From Pseudomonas azotoformans (GTDB lineage Bacteria; Pseudomonadota; Gammaproteobacteria; Pseudomonadales; Pseudomonadaceae): a stretch of 64,000 bases of DNA. The stretch lies in NCBI RefSeq assembly GCF_001579805.1, contig NZ_CP014546.1, positions 1,674,001 through 1,738,000 of the forward strand, given 5' to 3'. Each line of letters opens with the position of its first letter. Within the stretch, counting starts at the first letter, position 1. Under the pieces are notes generated by a model. The model had not been told where the DNA came from, searched no databases, and saw nothing but the letters and a program-made list of their open reading frames with translations. The position numbers were made by a program, and so were the translations under genes. Positions 40,143 to 52,462 of this stretch are shown piece after piece.

Positions 40143-40745
40143 TCAGACTTGATCCTCGGCATAAATGGCGGCGCTGATGATCGCGCCGCCCCACCGCCGG
40201 CGGCCAATGCAAAGCGGTACCGGGTTGCCCGAGGCTGTGGTGTTTTTCGCTGATCCGAATGCATACCCGGGCACGTTCTCCGGCGCCGCGCTGGTCTTGA
40301 GACCACCAGCCTGTGGGCTGAGCATTTGGATAATGCCGCCGATGGACATTGCAGCGCCTGCCGAATACAGAAAAGGTGACGCAGCAGCGAACGGCGTGAA
40401 AGACAGCACGTATGCTGCTGCAATCAATATCCCGCCGACAATTGTCTGAAGCGAACCCGCGCGTTTACTACCTGTAATTACTGGTGCAATGGTGATGTCG
40501 CCGGTTCCGTTGTAGTTCAACTCCTTCTCGCCAATATTCCGTTTTTCGCGGAACACGGCGAACTCTAAACCTCGGGATTTGGCGTTCGATATAAAACGCT
40601 CAAATCCGGGTATCTGAACGCACAAGGCTTTGACTGCTTCCGCTGGGGAGCGTACTGCCAGTGGATAAGATTTTCCGAATTGTCGAAGGGCTCCGCGAAG
40701 TTTGAAGTTGATGACGGGCGTGTATTCGATCACTGATGCGGCCAT
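40143..40745 (-). CDS. Lambda tail assembly protein I homologue
   Basis: 200 residues. The start INFKLRGALRQFGKSYPLAVRSPAEAVKALCVQIPGFERF, a central hydrophobic region (IVGGILIAAAYVLSFTPFAAASPFLYSAGAAMSIGG) and the end SGNPVPLCIGRRRWGGAIISAAIYAEDQ match lambda protein I, which helps assemble the tail tip. No other tail, head or lysis gene is in the window, so it is a lone structural-type gene in a satellite-like island. It could be a remnant or a helper-phage interference gene. Confidence 0.85.
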   Translation of the reverse strand: MAASVIEYTPVINFKLRGALRQFGKSYPLAVRSPAEAVKALCVQIPGFERFISNAKSRGLEFAVFREKRNIGEKELNYNGTGDITIAPVITGSKRAGSLQTIVGGILIAAAYVLSFTPFAAASPFLYSAGAAMSIGGIIQMLSPQAGGLKTSAAPENVPGYAFGSAKNTTASGNPVPLCIGRRRWGGAIISAAIYAEDQV

Positions 40746-42156: not shown

Positions 42157-42515
42157 GCCGTCACCTCGCCCCGATCACTACTGATCCAATGTTCCTGTGA
42201 TTTCGAAAACACCGGCAACAGCGGCAACAATGGCAACAGCCCCGTAAACCGTGGCCTCCAGGCGTTACCGATGCTGCCAAACTGTTGCCACCGGTTTTTT
42301 ACCGGCAACAGTGATAACCAAATGAAGGGAAAGTGCGGGGCTCTTATGTTGAAAATGAGGTGTGCGTTGCCAGTTGTTGCCAATTTTTTTATAGGGTGGC
42401 AACGGCTGTAAGCCACGCCACACAAGGCCGTTGCCGGTGTTGCCACTGTTGCCAGTGATTCTAGGTTCCTGTGAACTTGGGCAATCTGGATTGCTGGTCT
42501 TTGAGTGACGTTCAT
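42153..42515 (-). CDS. Doubtful ORF over the GGCAAC repeat region
   Basis: 120 codons that start and stop with ATGA overlaps to its neighbours, which argues for translation. The composition is odd (TVATPATAL, LLPLLPLLPVF) because the DNA consists largely of GTTGCC/GGCAAC repeats. It could be a chance frame through a regulatory or replication site. Confidence 0.3.
   Translation of the reverse strand: MNVTQRPAIQIAQVHRNLESLATVATPATALCGVAYSRCHPIKKLATTGNAHLIFNIRAPHFPFIWLSLLPVKNRWQQFGSIGNAWRPRFTGLLPLLPLLPVFSKSQEHWISSDRGEVTA
42214..42453. repeat. Period-9 GGCAAC array in inverted halves, possible iterons
   Basis: GGCAACA occurs at 42214, 42223 and 42232 (period 9). The inverse GTTGCC occurs at 42430, 42439 and 42448 (period 9), and again at 42366 and 42375. 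In the middle a hairpin CTGTTGCC-A-CCGG (42282-42294) / CCGGCAACAG (42302-42311) surrounds a T-rich loop. It lies just downstream of the primase and helicase-like genes, the place where satellites such as P4 keep origin iterons or crr sites. The origin role is inference. Confidence 0.6.
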
Positions 42516-44305
42516 ACGCCACCGCCTTCACGATCCATGATGTCCGGATCGATCACATAGAGACGAGCCTGGCCACCACCAGGGAGTCGGTAGTTTTTGG
42601 TTTTACGCTCGTTGTCACGGCGTGCGAGGACGTTAGCGCTCTCCAGAGCCTTGATGATGCGAGATAGGCCATAGCCGTGCGCCGCCTCGATGAGCGCCGG
42701 CTTGTTGAACAGGTACAGGCGGTTGGTGCCCACCAGCTCCCAGTAACCGGCCCGGTTGAAAACCTTGGTGTCAGGCGTTTGATCGTCGACATCTGAAAAG
42801 CGGCTGCTACCGTGGCGGTCGATAAAGTCCAAGATGCCGGCCAGGATCTGGCGGTCTTCGGCGTTGCCGCTGCCAACCCGGCTGAGCCATTCGCCATACA
42901 GCAAGCGGCAGTCGGCGAGGGCGGTACCAGGTACCCAAGGTAGCAGGCCATACGCGATTGCCATTTCACCGGCTAGTGCGATCACGGCGAACCGATCAGC
43001 CACTCGGCCGGCCTGGGCGTTGTCTTCCACAAAACTGGCGCGTACCCCGGCAAAGTCTTCCAGTAGGCCGGCCCGGTCGTCGCTCTCGAGCAGTTTCTCG
43101 ACAAAGGCTGGCCCAAGGTGGCCGTGGTGGGCGCCGACCGCTACGGTGAGCTGCCGGTGAAAGTCCGCTCCCTCAAGCCCGTGCAATTCGTCGAAGGCTC
43201 GGTGCGTGCGGGTACCGGCGTTAACGTCGACCATGCGCAACTCGGCGCCAGCGTGTGCGGCATTGCCGGATATGGCCGCGTGTTCAGAGAGTGAGCGCTC
43301 GCCGCTGGAGAGTGTCAGCAGGCGCCAGCTCAATTTGGCGCGGCCTTCGCGCTCACGGGTCATGGTGCCTTTGCCCTGGCCGTTGGCGAGGGAATACGCC
43401 ATTTCCTGTACGCGCTTGGGGTCGGCGCGCTTGATCTCATCCAAGGGCAGGATGGTGTCATTCCGGCTCGATGCCTCGATCTCCAGGCCGCCCTTGGTCA
43501 TGTCCCAACTGGCGGCGAACACGCCCGGGTCGCCCCATACCGACGATCCGATCAGTTGTGCCAGTGACTTGCCGCTTGAGCTGTCGCCCACCAGATGAAC
43601 ACCACCGCCCAGCACACCCACCAAACTCAGCAACGGGCCTGCCAGCGAGCAGCCGATCGCCAGCGTCAGTACCGGGTTGCCCGCGCACTTGGCAGCCACC
43701 TCTGATTGCCACAGCGCCAGCTCGCCACGCCGGCTGAAAAGTACCTGAGCCTTGTTGCTGGCCTGGTACCGCACATTGGCGCTACCGATGGTTCGCCCAG
43801 GCAGCACAAACGCGCCCGACTCATGCCAACCCGGCCGGCTGGTGGTGGCAAACACCTCTGCAGGATGCTGGTCGAGCAGGTACTCCATGAACGTGCCGCG
43901 CTTCTTGAGGGCGATAATGACGCCCATCCCGAACAAGGCACGCCGGGCGTCCTCGCCGCTGCCGCCGAACACTTCCATGGCGATGATCCATTCCTTGATG
44001 CCGCCCTCTGTGACTAGGCGTAGCAGCCGGCCCTCGCTGCCATCGTCGCTGTTGGTGGTGCGGGCGACGACGGTGACGGGGCTGGAGATCCACTCATCAG
44101 TGATAGGCCGGTCGCCGGTATCTCCCTCGGCGTCGTCCTGGTCAGCGGCGGCGCGCTTGAAGCTATGCCAGTAAACGCCCGGGCGCAGCTTGCGGCCCTT
44201 CTCATTGATCACCCAATGCTCATACACCGCCCAGCAGGGGCGATCTGGCGCAATGGTCGCGGCGTCCGGCCGAAGATTGATCACGTTGGTGTCAGGCTTG
44301 GACAT
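42512..44305 (-). CDS. DUF927 family ATPase, replication helicase-like
   Basis: 597 residues from ATG 44305, which overlaps the end of the primase gene; a longer frame reading further into that gene is rejected. Walker A GDSSSGKS (240-247), Walker B-like DTILPLDEIKRAD and a C-terminal winged-helix-like part (YGLSRIIKALESANVLARRDNERKTKNYRLPG) are visible. DUF927 proteins pair with Toprim primases in satellites, phages and integrative elements and are thought to act as replicative helicases. Confidence 0.85.
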   Translation of the reverse strand: MSKPDTNVINLRPDAATIAPDRPCWAVYEHWVINEKGRKLRPGVYWHSFKRAAADQDDAEGDTGDRPITDEWISSPVTVVARTTNSDDGSEGRLLRLVTEGGIKEWIIAMEVFGGSGEDARRALFGMGVIIALKKRGTFMEYLLDQHPAEVFATTSRPGWHESGAFVLPGRTIGSANVRYQASNKAQVLFSRRGELALWQSEVAAKCAGNPVLTLAIGCSLAGPLLSLVGVLGGGVHLVGDSSSGKSLAQLIGSSVWGDPGVFAASWDMTKGGLEIEASSRNDTILPLDEIKRADPKRVQEMAYSLANGQGKGTMTREREGRAKLSWRLLTLSSGERSLSEHAAISGNAAHAGAELRMVDVNAGTRTHRAFDELHGLEGADFHRQLTVAVGAHHGHLGPAFVEKLLESDDRAGLLEDFAGVRASFVEDNAQAGRVADRFAVIALAGEMAIAYGLLPWVPGTALADCRLLYGEWLSRVGSGNAEDRQILAGILDFIDRHGSSRFSDVDDQTPDTKVFNRAGYWELVGTNRLYLFNKPALIEAAHGYGLSRIIKALESANVLARRDNERKTKNYRLPGGGQARLYVIDPDIMDREGGGV

Positions 44306-45173
44306 GGGCGAGTTTCCAGTTGGCGAGGTCGTTGAAGTCGGTGAGGTCATCGGGAGCGCCTTCCGGCCACTCAGGGAAAGCCACTTGACCACCCACGGCC
44401 GCCGCTGCTGCGTTTGCCGCTGCGCGCCCCGGGTTGCCATCGGTGAGCCGGTCGTCGTCGCCGGCGATGACGATTGGTTGGCCCGGGTATCGAGCGCGAA
44501 GTGCTATCGCCGCCGGGATCAAGTTGCCCGCGTTCATGGCAGCGGCAACGACGTAGCCGCCGTGCTGGTGGAGGCTGGCGGCCGTCGCCCACCCTTCGCA
44601 GATGCAAAGCACAGAACCTGGCTGGATGATGCCCAGCGGCGAATAGGTGCCCTTGATCCGGCCGCCGAATAGGAAGCGCTTGTCGCCGTCCGGCCCGATC
44701 CTTTGCAGGTTGACCAAGCGCCCATCCAGGTACAGCGGGATCAGCAGGTCAGCGCCACGCTGGCGCAGGCCGTAGGAGCGAACTGCCTTGGCTACCAGAT
44801 ACGGGTGGTCGGGTGAGGCGCGGCGCGCATTGCGCCACCAGTGGTTGGCCTTCTCGGCGGCCTGCTGCTGGCGCTGGTGTTGCTCGGCTTCGCGCTGGCG
44901 CCGGGCTTGGTCAACTCGCTCGCGGATCTGGGCCGCCTCGCGGGCGTCCACCGGTTCGCGACTACACCAGGTGCTGGCGGCGCCGGCTTTCCAACTGCCG
45001 AACGCGCCGGATGCGATGCCGTCCAGGTACAGCACATACCAGCCGTTGAGCGAGCCAGGCTTATCCTCCGGCACACGGAATCGGTGGATTGCACCGTCGG
45101 GCTCTGGTAGCCAGTCGAGAGGGCCATAGACGGCCTGGAGCGCATCACGGAATTGGATCGTTGCGTCTGTCAT
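44292..45173 (-). CDS. Toprim domain primase-like protein
   Basis: 293 residues. The N-terminal region (1-110) has WYVLYLDG and FGSWKAGAAS; a linker coiled coil follows (ARRQREAEQHQRQQQAAEKA). The Toprim domain has VLCICEGWATAASL (catalytic Glu) and IVIAGDDDRLTDGNPG (DxD). The end DLTDFNDLANW is typical of phage and plasmid Toprim primases. With the overlapping DUF927 gene it forms the replication module of the element. Confidence 0.87.
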   Translation of the reverse strand: MTDATIQFRDALQAVYGPLDWLPEPDGAIHRFRVPEDKPGSLNGWYVLYLDGIASGAFGSWKAGAASTWCSREPVDAREAAQIRERVDQARRQREAEQHQRQQQAAEKANHWWRNARRASPDHPYLVAKAVRSYGLRQRGADLLIPLYLDGRLVNLQRIGPDGDKRFLFGGRIKGTYSPLGIIQPGSVLCICEGWATAASLHQHGGYVVAAAMNAGNLIPAAIALRARYPGQPIVIAGDDDRLTDGNPGRAAANAAAAAVGGQVAFPEWPEGAPDDLTDFNDLANWKLAHVQA

Positions 45174-45783: not shown

Positions 45784-46101
45784 TCATAGGGCTACCCCGC
45801 GGTACGGCTGATCGCCGCCCAGATCGTCCGATCCGAATAGGGCTTGATTGACGGCTTTCCGGCTATCAAGCATGCGGTCGTGTTCCTCATGCGTACCGAT
45901 CTCCGCCGCCACCCATTCAGGAAGCTCCTTGCGCCGACGCATTTCGTTGAGGTGCGTCCACCAGCGAGTTGCGTAACGTCGCTCCGCGGCGATGAACTCG
46001 GCCAGCGAGGCGCTTTGTTCGTCCAGCAGGTAGTGGGGTAACGGCAGCTGAGAGGCTGATGACGGGCTGCTCGTGTTGCGGGCCTCGCTGGCGTTGATCA
46101 T
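45784..46101 (-). CDS. Small hypothetical protein
   Basis: 105 residues; unstructured Ser-rich start followed by a helical part (EFIAAERRYATRWWTHLNEMRRRKELPEWVAAEIGTHEEHDRMLD). ATG 46101 overlaps the stop of the upstream frame by ATGA. Not recognised. Confidence 0.6.
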   Translation of the reverse strand: MINASEARNTSSPSSASQLPLPHYLLDEQSASLAEFIAAERRYATRWWTHLNEMRRRKELPEWVAAEIGTHEEHDRMLDSRKAVNQALFGSDDLGGDQPYRGVAL

Positions 46102-46577
46102 TCCGCACCTCCGGAATGCTCCAGCTTGCGAACGATGGTCATGTGGGCGTTGTAGCGGGCAAGGCGAACTGAAAGTGAGGAGTTTGCGCGGAGGGCGCTC
46201 AGGGCCATGCGGCGGTGAGCAAATGCGCGAATCGCAGACGGATTTAGGGCAGGCATACGTGGAGCTCCTAACGTAAAGAGGGAGCTGCCACGTTCGTTAC
46301 CAAGCGAATGGGTGGCAGCTGTGCGCAGGTTGGTAAACCGGGACGTTAGGAACCCGGCAGGCACGAATGCCTCCCACGCACAGCCGCCATAACACTTAAC
46401 TGCGGGCACAAAAAAAGCGCCTGCAATCGTAATGGGGGCGCTGTTGCGCCTAACGTTCAGCGGGTTACCAAGCCCGATCGCTGAATTTGCAGCGACGGGC
46501 AAACCATACCGACGAGCGCGATTGCTTGCAACAAAAGATATCGACCGTTTGTCACTGATCATGAGCATAGCTGTCAT
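46098..46577 (-). CDS. Ash-family ORF overlying an RNA regulatory region
   Basis: The full frame encodes 159 residues with blocks typical of the Phage_ASH family: GAFFVPAVKCYGGCAWE, AGFLTSRFTNLRTA and SLGNERGSSLFTLGAP. Each block lies on one of the elements of a complementary RNA system described at 46266-46474, so the protein conservation may reflect the RNA. A shorter gene of 52 residues from ATG 46256 has a strong TAGGAG eight bases upstream and is the more believable protein; it couples to the next gene by ATGA. The longer frame also overlaps the end of the KilA-N gene by ATGA. Confidence 0.5.
   Translation of the reverse strand: MTAMLMISDKRSISFVASNRARRYGLPVAANSAIGLGNPLNVRRNSAPITIAGAFFVPAVKCYGGCAWEAFVPAGFLTSRFTNLRTAATHSLGNERGSSLFTLGAPRMPALNPSAIRAFAHRRMALSALRANSSLSVRLARYNAHMTIVRKLEHSGGAE
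46266..46474 (-). ncRNA. P4-type immunity RNA region (seqA, seqB, seqC)
   Basis: Read on the minus strand, seqA is 46474-46449, seqB 46350-46328 and seqC in two blocks at 46305-46296 and 46274-46267. On the plus strand CCTAACGT occurs at 46267 and 46449 with the inverse ACGTTAGG at 46343. GTTACCAAGC occurs at 46296 and 46464, with the partly inverse TTGGTAA at 46330. So seqB can pair with either seqA or seqC. A hairpin AGCTGCCAC (46283-46291) / GTGGCAGCT (46312-46320) lies inside seqC. In phage P4 the CI RNA carries seqB and causes early termination of the replication operon; the same layout is inferred here. seqC also covers the Shine-Dalgarno site for ATG 46256. Confidence 0.6.
46409..46442 (-). 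terminator. Intrinsic terminator between seqA and seqB
   Basis: On the minus strand AGCGCC (46442-46437) pairs with GGCGCT (46421-46416) and is followed by seven T (46416-46410). It stands between seqA and seqB of the putative immunity RNA, where an RNA-controlled termination switch would need it. Confidence 0.75.
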
Positions 46578-47248
46578 GCGGCATCACTCCGAAGGTGCTT
46601 GGCCGTCAGGCTTTGGACGTAGCGCAACAGGGATGCTTTGCGGGCTGCGAAGTCCTTGCCCTGGCCGATCAGCAACACGTCGCGGATCTCGATCAAGGTA
46701 ACCAGCACCAGCTCATGGGCGCTGAGCTCATCGCGATTGCGGCCGGCGAATTGTCCGGTGATCGCCTGGTTGATCAGTTTGGCTTCGTTGATGAAGTGGT
46801 GGCGCTGGGGAGTCTTGCCACTCTCCTCATGAGCGATTGCCAGAGCCTCACACAGACCGCGATAGCCGACGGCCGACTGTTGCCGCGCCTGCTGCCAATT
46901 ACCTTGATCGCTGCGTACCAAGGCGTCGATCTGTTCGTCGCACCAGATTTCAAAGTCCACTGAGAGCCAGCGGGCGAACTTCACTGCCAGCTTGGGGTGG
47001 AGCCAGGTGCCGCTGGTGGAGGTGTTGCCGCGCCGGGTCTTCACCAGAGTAATGTGTGATTTTCCCACATTACTTTTTTCCATTCGCTCAGACAGCCGAT
47101 TGATGTATTCCTTGGTCGAGTCGAGGCGTAACCATTGCGCAGGCTCTCTGCCAAAGCGCTCCGCTATCTCCGTTGCATGGAGCCAGCCGTCAGCATTGAA
47201 GCGCACGGCCTGGCCTTCGTAGTCGAAGGGAATTATGCGGGCTGTCAT
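46574..47248 (-). CDS. KilA-N domain protein
   Basis: 224 residues. The KilA-N DNA-binding domain spans about 1-110: FNADGWLHATEIAERFGREPAQWLRLDSTKEYI and later TSGTWLHPKLAVKFARWLSVDFEIWCDEQI. A helical C-terminus follows (GYRGLCEALAIAHEESGKTPQRHHF). Such proteins act as phage-type regulators or antirepressors. Coupled by short overlaps to genes on both sides. Confidence 0.88.
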   Translation of the reverse strand: MTARIIPFDYEGQAVRFNADGWLHATEIAERFGREPAQWLRLDSTKEYINRLSERMEKSNVGKSHITLVKTRRGNTSTSGTWLHPKLAVKFARWLSVDFEIWCDEQIDALVRSDQGNWQQARQQSAVGYRGLCEALAIAHEESGKTPQRHHFINEAKLINQAITGQFAGRNRDELSAHELVLVTLIEIRDVLLIGQGKDFAARKASLLRYVQSLTAKHLRSDAA

Positions 47249-52277: not shown

Positions 52278-52462
52278 TCCGTCCGGCAAGGCATTGCAGT
52301 AAACGCAGAGGGCACGAGAGCGCTGACCCTTTGCGTGTTTCACCCCGTTATTCGTAGTGGCCGGGAACGCTGTGGCAGTCGATCATCGCATGCTGCCGCA
52401 GTTGCCTCCCCGCCACGTATTCCTTGGACCACGCCACCCGATGAGTGGCGAATGAGGACTTT

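Follow-up and report, generated by a model that had tools for sequence, protein, structure and literature searches.

Processing by RNase P, which yields a free trans-acting RNA of about 77 nt, is a trait of the C4 RNA family. This family of antisense RNAs was described by Weinberg in 2010 (PMC2864571). In phage P4, the CI and seqA RNAs lie inside the eta frame, which is coupled to an upstream alpA homolog and is translated, and this translation prevents termination, according to the available text of PMC10111431. The record of phage P1 annotates the corresponding elements a1, b1, c4, a2, b2 and icd. IsrK of Salmonella Gifsy-1 is described as a structural homolog of P4 SeqA (PMC4825925, available text), and Acinetobacter baumannii carries multi-copy C4-like sRNAs with variable a' (PMC5320573, available text).

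We analysed a window of 64,000 nt from Pseudomonas azotoformans, whose minus strand carries a frame of 159 codons with repeats and their inverse beneath it. We hold with high confidence that this locus is a C4/CI antisense immunity cassette that lies within a nested frame of the eta/kil type, on an integrative element of Pseudomonas.

Anatomy of the cassette and its surroundings

On the minus strand, the elements follow one another in the order KilA-N gene, start of the 159-aa frame, b1-a1, T-tailed hairpin, C4 (a', b'), b2-a2 and ATG 46256. The KilA-N domain gene (46574..47248, minus strand; Pfam KilA-N, 74.7 bits) overlaps with its stop the start of the long eta-like frame (46098..46577, minus strand, from the ORF list) in an ATGA (46577/46574), and from this overlap we infer translational coupling of the long frame, which spans the whole RNA cassette, to the upstream gene. 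The last 52 codons of the frame form a nested kil-like ORF in the same frame (46098..46256, minus strand), with a ribosome site overlapping a2, and the next gene of the operon (45784..46101, minus strand, from the ORF list; weak match to PHROG 38072) again begins in a 4-nt overlap. Toprim (44292-45173) and DUF927 (42512-44440) genes follow downstream on the same strand (together 42512..45173; Pfam) and are presumed to serve replication and to be controlled by the switch.

Direct reading placed CCTAACGT at 46267 and 46449 with its inverse ACGTTAGG at 46343, and GTTACCAAGC at 46296 and 46464 with a partial inverse, TTGGTAA, at 46330; the repeat, inverse and terminator coordinates of the first-pass annotation were all exact. 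Neither CCTAACGT nor ACGTTAGG has other copies within the 64-kb window. The C4 model of Rfam (RF01695) matched 46394-46308 on the minus strand with 85.1 bits against a gathering score of 45, over model positions 1-87, and this RNA (46308..46394), whose structure shows covariation in relatives, holds a' at 46343-46350 and b' at 46330-46336. Ahead of it, the c4-a1b1 target/leader (RF03163; 46509-46457, minus strand) scored 57.7 bits, above gathering, with b1 at 46465-46471, and is followed by a1 (46449..46456), which is part of seqA and the exact complement of a'. The isrK model (RF01394; 46496-46410, minus strand) matched marginally, with 50.5 bits against a gathering score of 50. A terminator had been placed between seqA and seqB, and a T-tailed hairpin of the isrK/seqA type, with a T7 tail, indeed stands at 46442-46410 between a1 and C4. 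Behind C4, the second target (46266..46303, minus strand), recognised by pairing, consists of b2 (46297-46303) and a2 (46274-46266); a2 overlaps the Shine-Dalgarno sequence AGGAG (46269-46265) ahead of ATG 46256, as had been claimed for seqC. The cassette RNA is a C4/CI-type antisense immunity RNA, of a family already represented in Rfam. When the 254-nt region was shuffled at constant base composition, the C4 loop stretch had an exact complement of at least 8 nt on both sides in 6 of 100,000 cases, and the fold of the 250-nt RNA had a z of -6.67, with none of 200 dinucleotide shuffles equally low.

A generic scan reported no promoter and no terminator at the cassette, probably because the terminator loop is longer than the 3-8 nt that the scan allows and because the promoter is a weak consensus match. 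The probable internal promoter, TTGCAA-N17-TATGGT (46503..46531, minus strand), lies 137 nt before C4 and was recognised from a pattern in related cassettes. Of 40 kil-type cassettes, 11 carried the stricter pattern TTGC[AG][CT]-N15-18-TA[GC]N[CA]T, each time at -137, and of 83 other cassettes 14 carried it; shuffles averaged 0.1 in either group. The copy in the window does not match the strict pattern.

The element adjoins tRNA-Arg, with integrase, DUF6387, AlpA, HTH_39 and KilA-N genes on one side of the cassette and the Toprim and DUF927 genes on the other (Pfam). Further left lie a tail assembly protein (phrog_32, 40143-40745) and a phage lipoprotein, and with this tail assembly protein left of Toprim/DUF927, the element could be a prophage instead of a satellite. 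As to an attachment site, no exact repeat of at least 14 nt of the tRNA-Arg region was found elsewhere in the window, and the cassette gave no similarity match to E. coli DNA. A gabT RNA motif (RF01738, 69.2 bits), which is listed for Pseudomonas in the available text of PMC2864571, lies at 52356-52417.

The first-pass annotation had recognised the layout of the phage P4 CI RNA, and the models bear this out, with C4 and isrK matching the CI and seqA regions of P4 itself (74.9 and 60.8 bits; c4-a1b1 at 44.1 bits falls below its 46.7). Phage P1 matched C4 (68.8 bits) and c4-a1b1 (51.0 bits), with isrK at 35.1 bits, below 50. As in the window, the long frame of P4 spans seqA, CI and seqC, has a nested ORF behind a2/seqC, and overlaps with its start, by 4 nt, the stop codon of a DNA-binding-protein gene upstream, as seen in the P4 record and in five E. 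coli relatives. However, the upstream partner is AlpA in P4 and KilA-N in the window, C4 lies in another codon register, and the P4 products match the Ash and Icd-like families, whereas the long and nested ORFs of the window match neither. The immI region of P1/P7 (c4-icd-ant) shares the order a1/b1, C4, a2/b2, with a2/b2 ahead of the first ORF, but the P1 record shows no gene over the RNA and an antirepressor after icd, while the window has a KilA-N gene upstream. The isrK-orf45-anrP region of Gifsy-1 likewise has a seqA-type leader RNA; there IsrK activates orf45 translation in trans, whereas the antisense C4 of the window is a presumed repressor.

Covariation of the pairing addresses and a model of the switch

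The fetched loci contained 132 C4 cassettes, of which 123 were kept after nine duplicates had been removed; 20 a1b1 loci (L049-L068), which overlap L031-L048 or are without C4, were left out of the set. Over 39 sequences and 27 pairs, 98.1% of the cells in the C4 helices were paired, and two-sided changes occurred in 14 of the 27 pairs, which none of 500 shuffles reached. These changes fell in helices P1 (9 of 17 pairs) and P2 (5 of 5), with none in the five pairs of P3 among the same 39 sequences.

The claim that seqB pairs with seqA upstream and with seqC downstream is upheld by exact complements in the window and by covariation among 67 types of a'. In the relatives, a1 and a2 change in step with a', as b1 and b2 do with b'. 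An exact complement of a' of at least 6 nt was present upstream in 52 and downstream in 53 of the 67 distinct a' sequences, compared with 15% for swapped partners, so the compensatory changes that the first-pass annotation had named as a check are present. For b', the complement was found upstream in 64 and downstream in 66 of the 67 (swapped partners 29% and 18%), and none of 5000 shuffles reached the address covariation over the 67 a' types. Cognate addresses satisfied the joint criterion in 24 of 27 mobile types and 43 of 55 of the other types, with cross-matches at 0.7-3.4%; both the address and the cross-match tests took a' and b' from fixed offsets and so score cassettes too low where the loops are of unusual length. 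The kil-type list contains the same a' with different b', and the reverse, hence the address has two parts. When the 18 C4 RNAs of the P. azotoformans genome were paired in a matrix with all 18 targets, cognate pairs averaged -31.1 kcal/mol against -22.4 kcal/mol upstream and -24.0 against -17.9 kcal/mol downstream, neither difference being reached in 10,000 permutations; the own target ranked first for 16 of the 18 upstream and for 9 downstream.

By analogy with P1 and P4, we suggest how the cassette may work. In the quiescent state, the internal promoter (46531-46503) would give rise to a short leader, and the C4 RNA (46394-46308) would be excised. Through a' and b' it would bind a1b1 on newly made transcripts, which would favour termination at 46442-46410, and by binding a2b2 it would cover the ribosome site of the 52-aa kil-like ORF. 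The downstream genes would remain off, and an element arriving with the same address would likewise be shut down. In the active state, transcription from upstream would arrive with ribosomes that have passed through the KilA-N gene and reinitiate where the two genes overlap in ATGA; by translating the long frame they would block the RNA structures and the terminator, and the downstream genes would be read. The long frame would matter mainly by its openness, and its amino acids over the RNA would largely be a by-product. A killing function of the kil-like product is putative, as the ORF did not match the Icd-like family NF033153 (0 families at E 0.1).

The same pairing would be equally good within one molecule, which is the strength of a purely cis-acting leader, where C4 pairs with a1b1 or a2b2 of its own transcript and neither free RNA nor immunity results; the related IsrK leader does switch between two structures of one transcript (PMC4825925, available text). 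Such a leader is a credible minority view that we regard as unlikely, because P1/P7 C4 and P4 CI are described as processed antisense RNAs (PMC5320573 and PMC4825925, available text), the C4-type RNAs of A. baumannii are described as highly expressed and apparently processed (PMC5320573, available text), and in the minimum-energy fold of the window RNA the C4 part folds on itself into its hairpins.

The long frame and the Ash family

The first-pass annotation had taken the 159-aa ORF for a member of the Ash family, an assignment that did not hold. The ORF matched no family in Pfam, NCBIfam or PHROGs, and with PF10554 in view (cut-off 26 bits) 0 families were returned even at E 10; its likeness to Ash was seen by eye, unscored, over a1b1 and the terminator, in the same register. 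PF10554 had no match in the whole P. azotoformans genome. Among candidates of 0.55-1.75 times the query length, 668 homologous proteins were found, and none of the best 120 of these carried a Pfam domain.

We then compared selection along the frame, using the ratio of third-position divergence to the mean of first- and second-position divergence as well as dN/dS. The Pseudomonas set comprised 19 frames, the window and the 18 of 80 loci in which the frame is open over the whole stretch, and the enterobacterial set 76 frames, left from 81 after removal of duplicates and odd lengths. In Pseudomonas, the third-position ratio was 1.09 before the RNA, 1.28 over a1b1 and the terminator, 0.50 in a 5-codon spacer, 1.11 over C4, 1.43 over b2a2 and 1.85 in kil, with dN/dS values of 0.67, 0.70, 2.11, 0.83, 0.58 and 0.35 in the same order; the bootstrap ranges of dN/dS nearly meet or overlap (a1b1 0.39-1.15, C4 0.52-1.37, kil 0.21-0.52). 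The enterobacterial ratios were 0.80 before the RNA, 0.85 over seqA, 1.19 in the spacer, 1.14 over C4, 0.70 over seqC and 4.03 in kil, and dN/dS was 1.19, 0.91, 0.54, 0.76, 1.17 and 0.16, with bootstrap ranges of 0.11-0.22 for kil and 0.46-1.39 for C4. Eight P4/E. coli frames gave dN/dS of 0.86 for seqA, 0.66 for C4 and 0.33 for kil. Constraint on the RNA depresses synonymous change and thereby raises dN/dS; in the part preceding the RNA, however, a third-position excess is absent as well. These patterns suggest that the kil-like ORF is under purifying selection in the relatives and that a1b1 and C4 are without clear protein-type selection; the proposed dN/dS comparison before and after ATG 46256, like the check on compensatory changes, thus did not refute the first-pass proposal.

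The pattern also weighs on the reading of the long frame as a genuine conserved Ash-type protein, with the RNA features taking second place. In favour of this reading, the frame stays open for 159 codons, its 668 homologues are of similar length within the range of candidates searched, and b2a2 shows a mild third-position excess in Pseudomonas. Yet there is little or no such excess over a1b1, C4 or the part before the RNA in either group, where kil stands out, the C4 register differs between the window and the enterobacterial loci and P4, and the RNA persists in cassettes in which the frame is closed. We find this reading barely credible. By coordinates, C4 position 1 falls on a first codon base in the window and on a third codon base in all 80 enterobacterial loci and in P4, while at the isrK match the window and P4 frames read the same register. 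Because the C4 register differs and both frames are open, the two lineages read the C4 half of one RNA as different peptides.

From -120 to 45 nt past C4, 30 of 40 kil-type cassettes keep register 0 open (2.9 in base-composition shuffles), as do 15 of 83 others (4.6 in shuffles), compared with 9 and 6 of the 40 and 13 and 3 of the 83 for registers 1 and 2; as the cassettes are related and the shuffles preserve base composition only, these figures are not independent tests. They suggest selection for an open long frame in mobile elements. Openness as a mere by-product of the RNA was not favoured in view of this preference for register 0 in the kil-type cassettes, an argument that relatedness weakens. 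The frame in the register of kil was open through a1b1 in 26 of the 40 kil-type cassettes, and the other two frames in 13 and 7; in the remaining 14 the kil frame closes before the end of a1b1, and the long frame and kil as one conserved fused protein were rejected. In seven kil-type cassettes (L006, L007, L012, L016, L021, L030 and L089) the long frame crosses kil in another register and extends 486-498 nt beyond C4.

Selection on kil is also relevant to the possibility that the locus is a decayed prophage relic with no present function. The lack of an attachment-site repeat of the tRNA region in the window would fit a relic, as would the tail assembly protein being the sole recognisable structural gene among ten ORFs scanned leftward. 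The pairing elements are nevertheless all intact, relatives show purifying selection on the kil-like ORF, and at least 16 homologues among the best 120 of 668 share 89% identity or more along the full length. A relic is accordingly quite improbable, and a functional cassette is the reading we retain.

In P4, PF10554 (Phage_ASH) matches residues 37-161 of Eta, a stretch that begins with a1b1, ends shortly after the kil start and thus covers seqA, CI and seqC, and NF033153 (Icd-like) matches residues 161-208 as well as P1 Icd. We take P4 Kil to be 65 aa long, which places the kil start within the Eta frame. The eight E. coli proteins scanned all match PF10554 over the RNA elements. The proposal that the conserved Ash blocks fall on the RNA elements is therefore borne out in P4 and these E. 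coli proteins, and fails for the window, whose ORF has no Ash match. Among the 40 E. coli matches listed, eleven small replicons (H72-H82) named only 'ash family protein' align with the P4 query at 307-423 or 307-425, and H70 and H71 at 307-466, where C4 occupies 306-393 of the query. In L208 and L209, the 'ash family protein' has 39 aa, C4 makes up 84 of its 120 nt, and the match covers Ash model positions 49-86 and 49-87. Of 5426 complete E. coli genomes, 2819 carry sequence that resembles the P4 eta region in at least one part. C4 was present in 12 of 12 and 80 of 80 Eta-similar loci, which is not an unbiased rate since these loci were found via similarity to P4 Eta, the viral relatives being the best 80 of 332. 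A survey without similarity preselection matched PF10554 in 1 of 369 genomes of the class, and this single locus (L213) has C4; none of 14 control genomes matched.

The position of PF10554 on the RNA of P4 and E. coli, the codon pattern and the register difference together support the idea that Ash conservation is mainly RNA conservation. The suggestion that the family is partly an RNA mistaken for a protein thus fits the conservation signal (dN/dS 0.66-0.91 over a1b1/C4), not necessarily translation, as the long frame is probably translated, as reported for P4 Eta. This reading of Ash is not stated in the available text of PMC2864571, PMC5320573, PMC10111431, PMC4825925, PMC8628076, PMC13294457 or PMC8951638, from a search that covered few subscription journals, and in the text available for PMC13294457 (AntiFam) Phage_ASH, antisense and Rfam are absent. 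PF10554 and the product name 'ash family protein' meanwhile serve as evidence for genes. PMC8628076, in its available text, uses PF10554 (version.10) as the profile of the P4 epsilon gene for detecting P4-like satellites; version.14 matches the frame over the P4 CI/seqA RNA, and P4 epsilon (L149 889-1176) matches PF25738 Derepression. The P4 record also annotates a 137-aa 'cI gene product' (L149 1169-1585) over the end of the Eta frame, with the CI RNA included.

C4 cassettes and DUF6124 across Pseudomonas genomes

C4 was found in 275 of 298 genomes of the genus with at most 14 candidates scored per genome. The P. azotoformans genome has 18 C4 matches, and eight other Pseudomonas genomes, searched more deeply, have 21-47 each. 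A C4 lies within 600 nt upstream of DUF6124 genes on the same strand in 12 of 13 cases in P. azotoformans, 27 of 29 in G010 and 37 of 43 in G062, where chance would give about 0.001-0.002 per gene; conversely, such a DUF6124 follows 12 of the 18, 27 of the 36 and 36 of the 47 C4 matches. DUF6124 occurs in 1 of 274 genomes of the class sample, namely that of P. azotoformans, and its AlphaFold model shows two helices (mean pLDDT 78, shallow alignment). Outside the window, the P. azotoformans genome holds 17 further C4 cassettes (L031, L033-L048), behind which stand DUF6124 in 12 and DUF3077 in 3, one being the same gene, giving 14 of 17. The window cassette is the only kil-type one found in this genome. 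By Pfam, ten hand-picked ORFs flanking these loci are transport, metabolic, regulatory or repair genes. L047 and L048 show, by eye, a transposase-like ORF, so not every C4 copy need be stable, and L044 holds two C4-like copies in tandem, of which the second is degenerate. Four a1b1-like elements of the genome (at 718746, 1837924, 6546519 and 219550; L060, L062, L063 and L068) have no C4 behind them, and one adjoins a DUF3077 fragment; they could be orphan targets or decayed cassettes.

As in A. baumannii, this genome has many C4 copies with variable a'; what sets it apart is a1b1 ahead of 16 of the 18 C4 and DUF6124/DUF3077 behind 14 of the 18. The DUF6124-C4 link was not found in the available text of the literature searched, which included few subscription journals. 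Trans-immunity by a chromosomal C4 bank was not supported: of 459 pairs between dispersed C4s of P. azotoformans and mobile-element targets, 3 matched, fewer than the 24 of 702 in which mobile C4s fit one another's targets, and over all dispersed types 35 of 1485 pairs matched mobile targets.

On balance we lean towards the view that Pseudomonas has domesticated the C4 switch as a private leader of DUF6124 and some DUF3077 genes, and that the Ash domain is chiefly the translated shadow of the C4 RNA. If this is true, the chromosome is a bank of largely insulated antisense switches whose design is shared with phage immunity, in which the targets flanking each cassette match that cassette's address of two parts (a', b'). 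Such a multi-copy bank would allow direct tests, within a single cell, of how specific the addresses of antisense immunity are.
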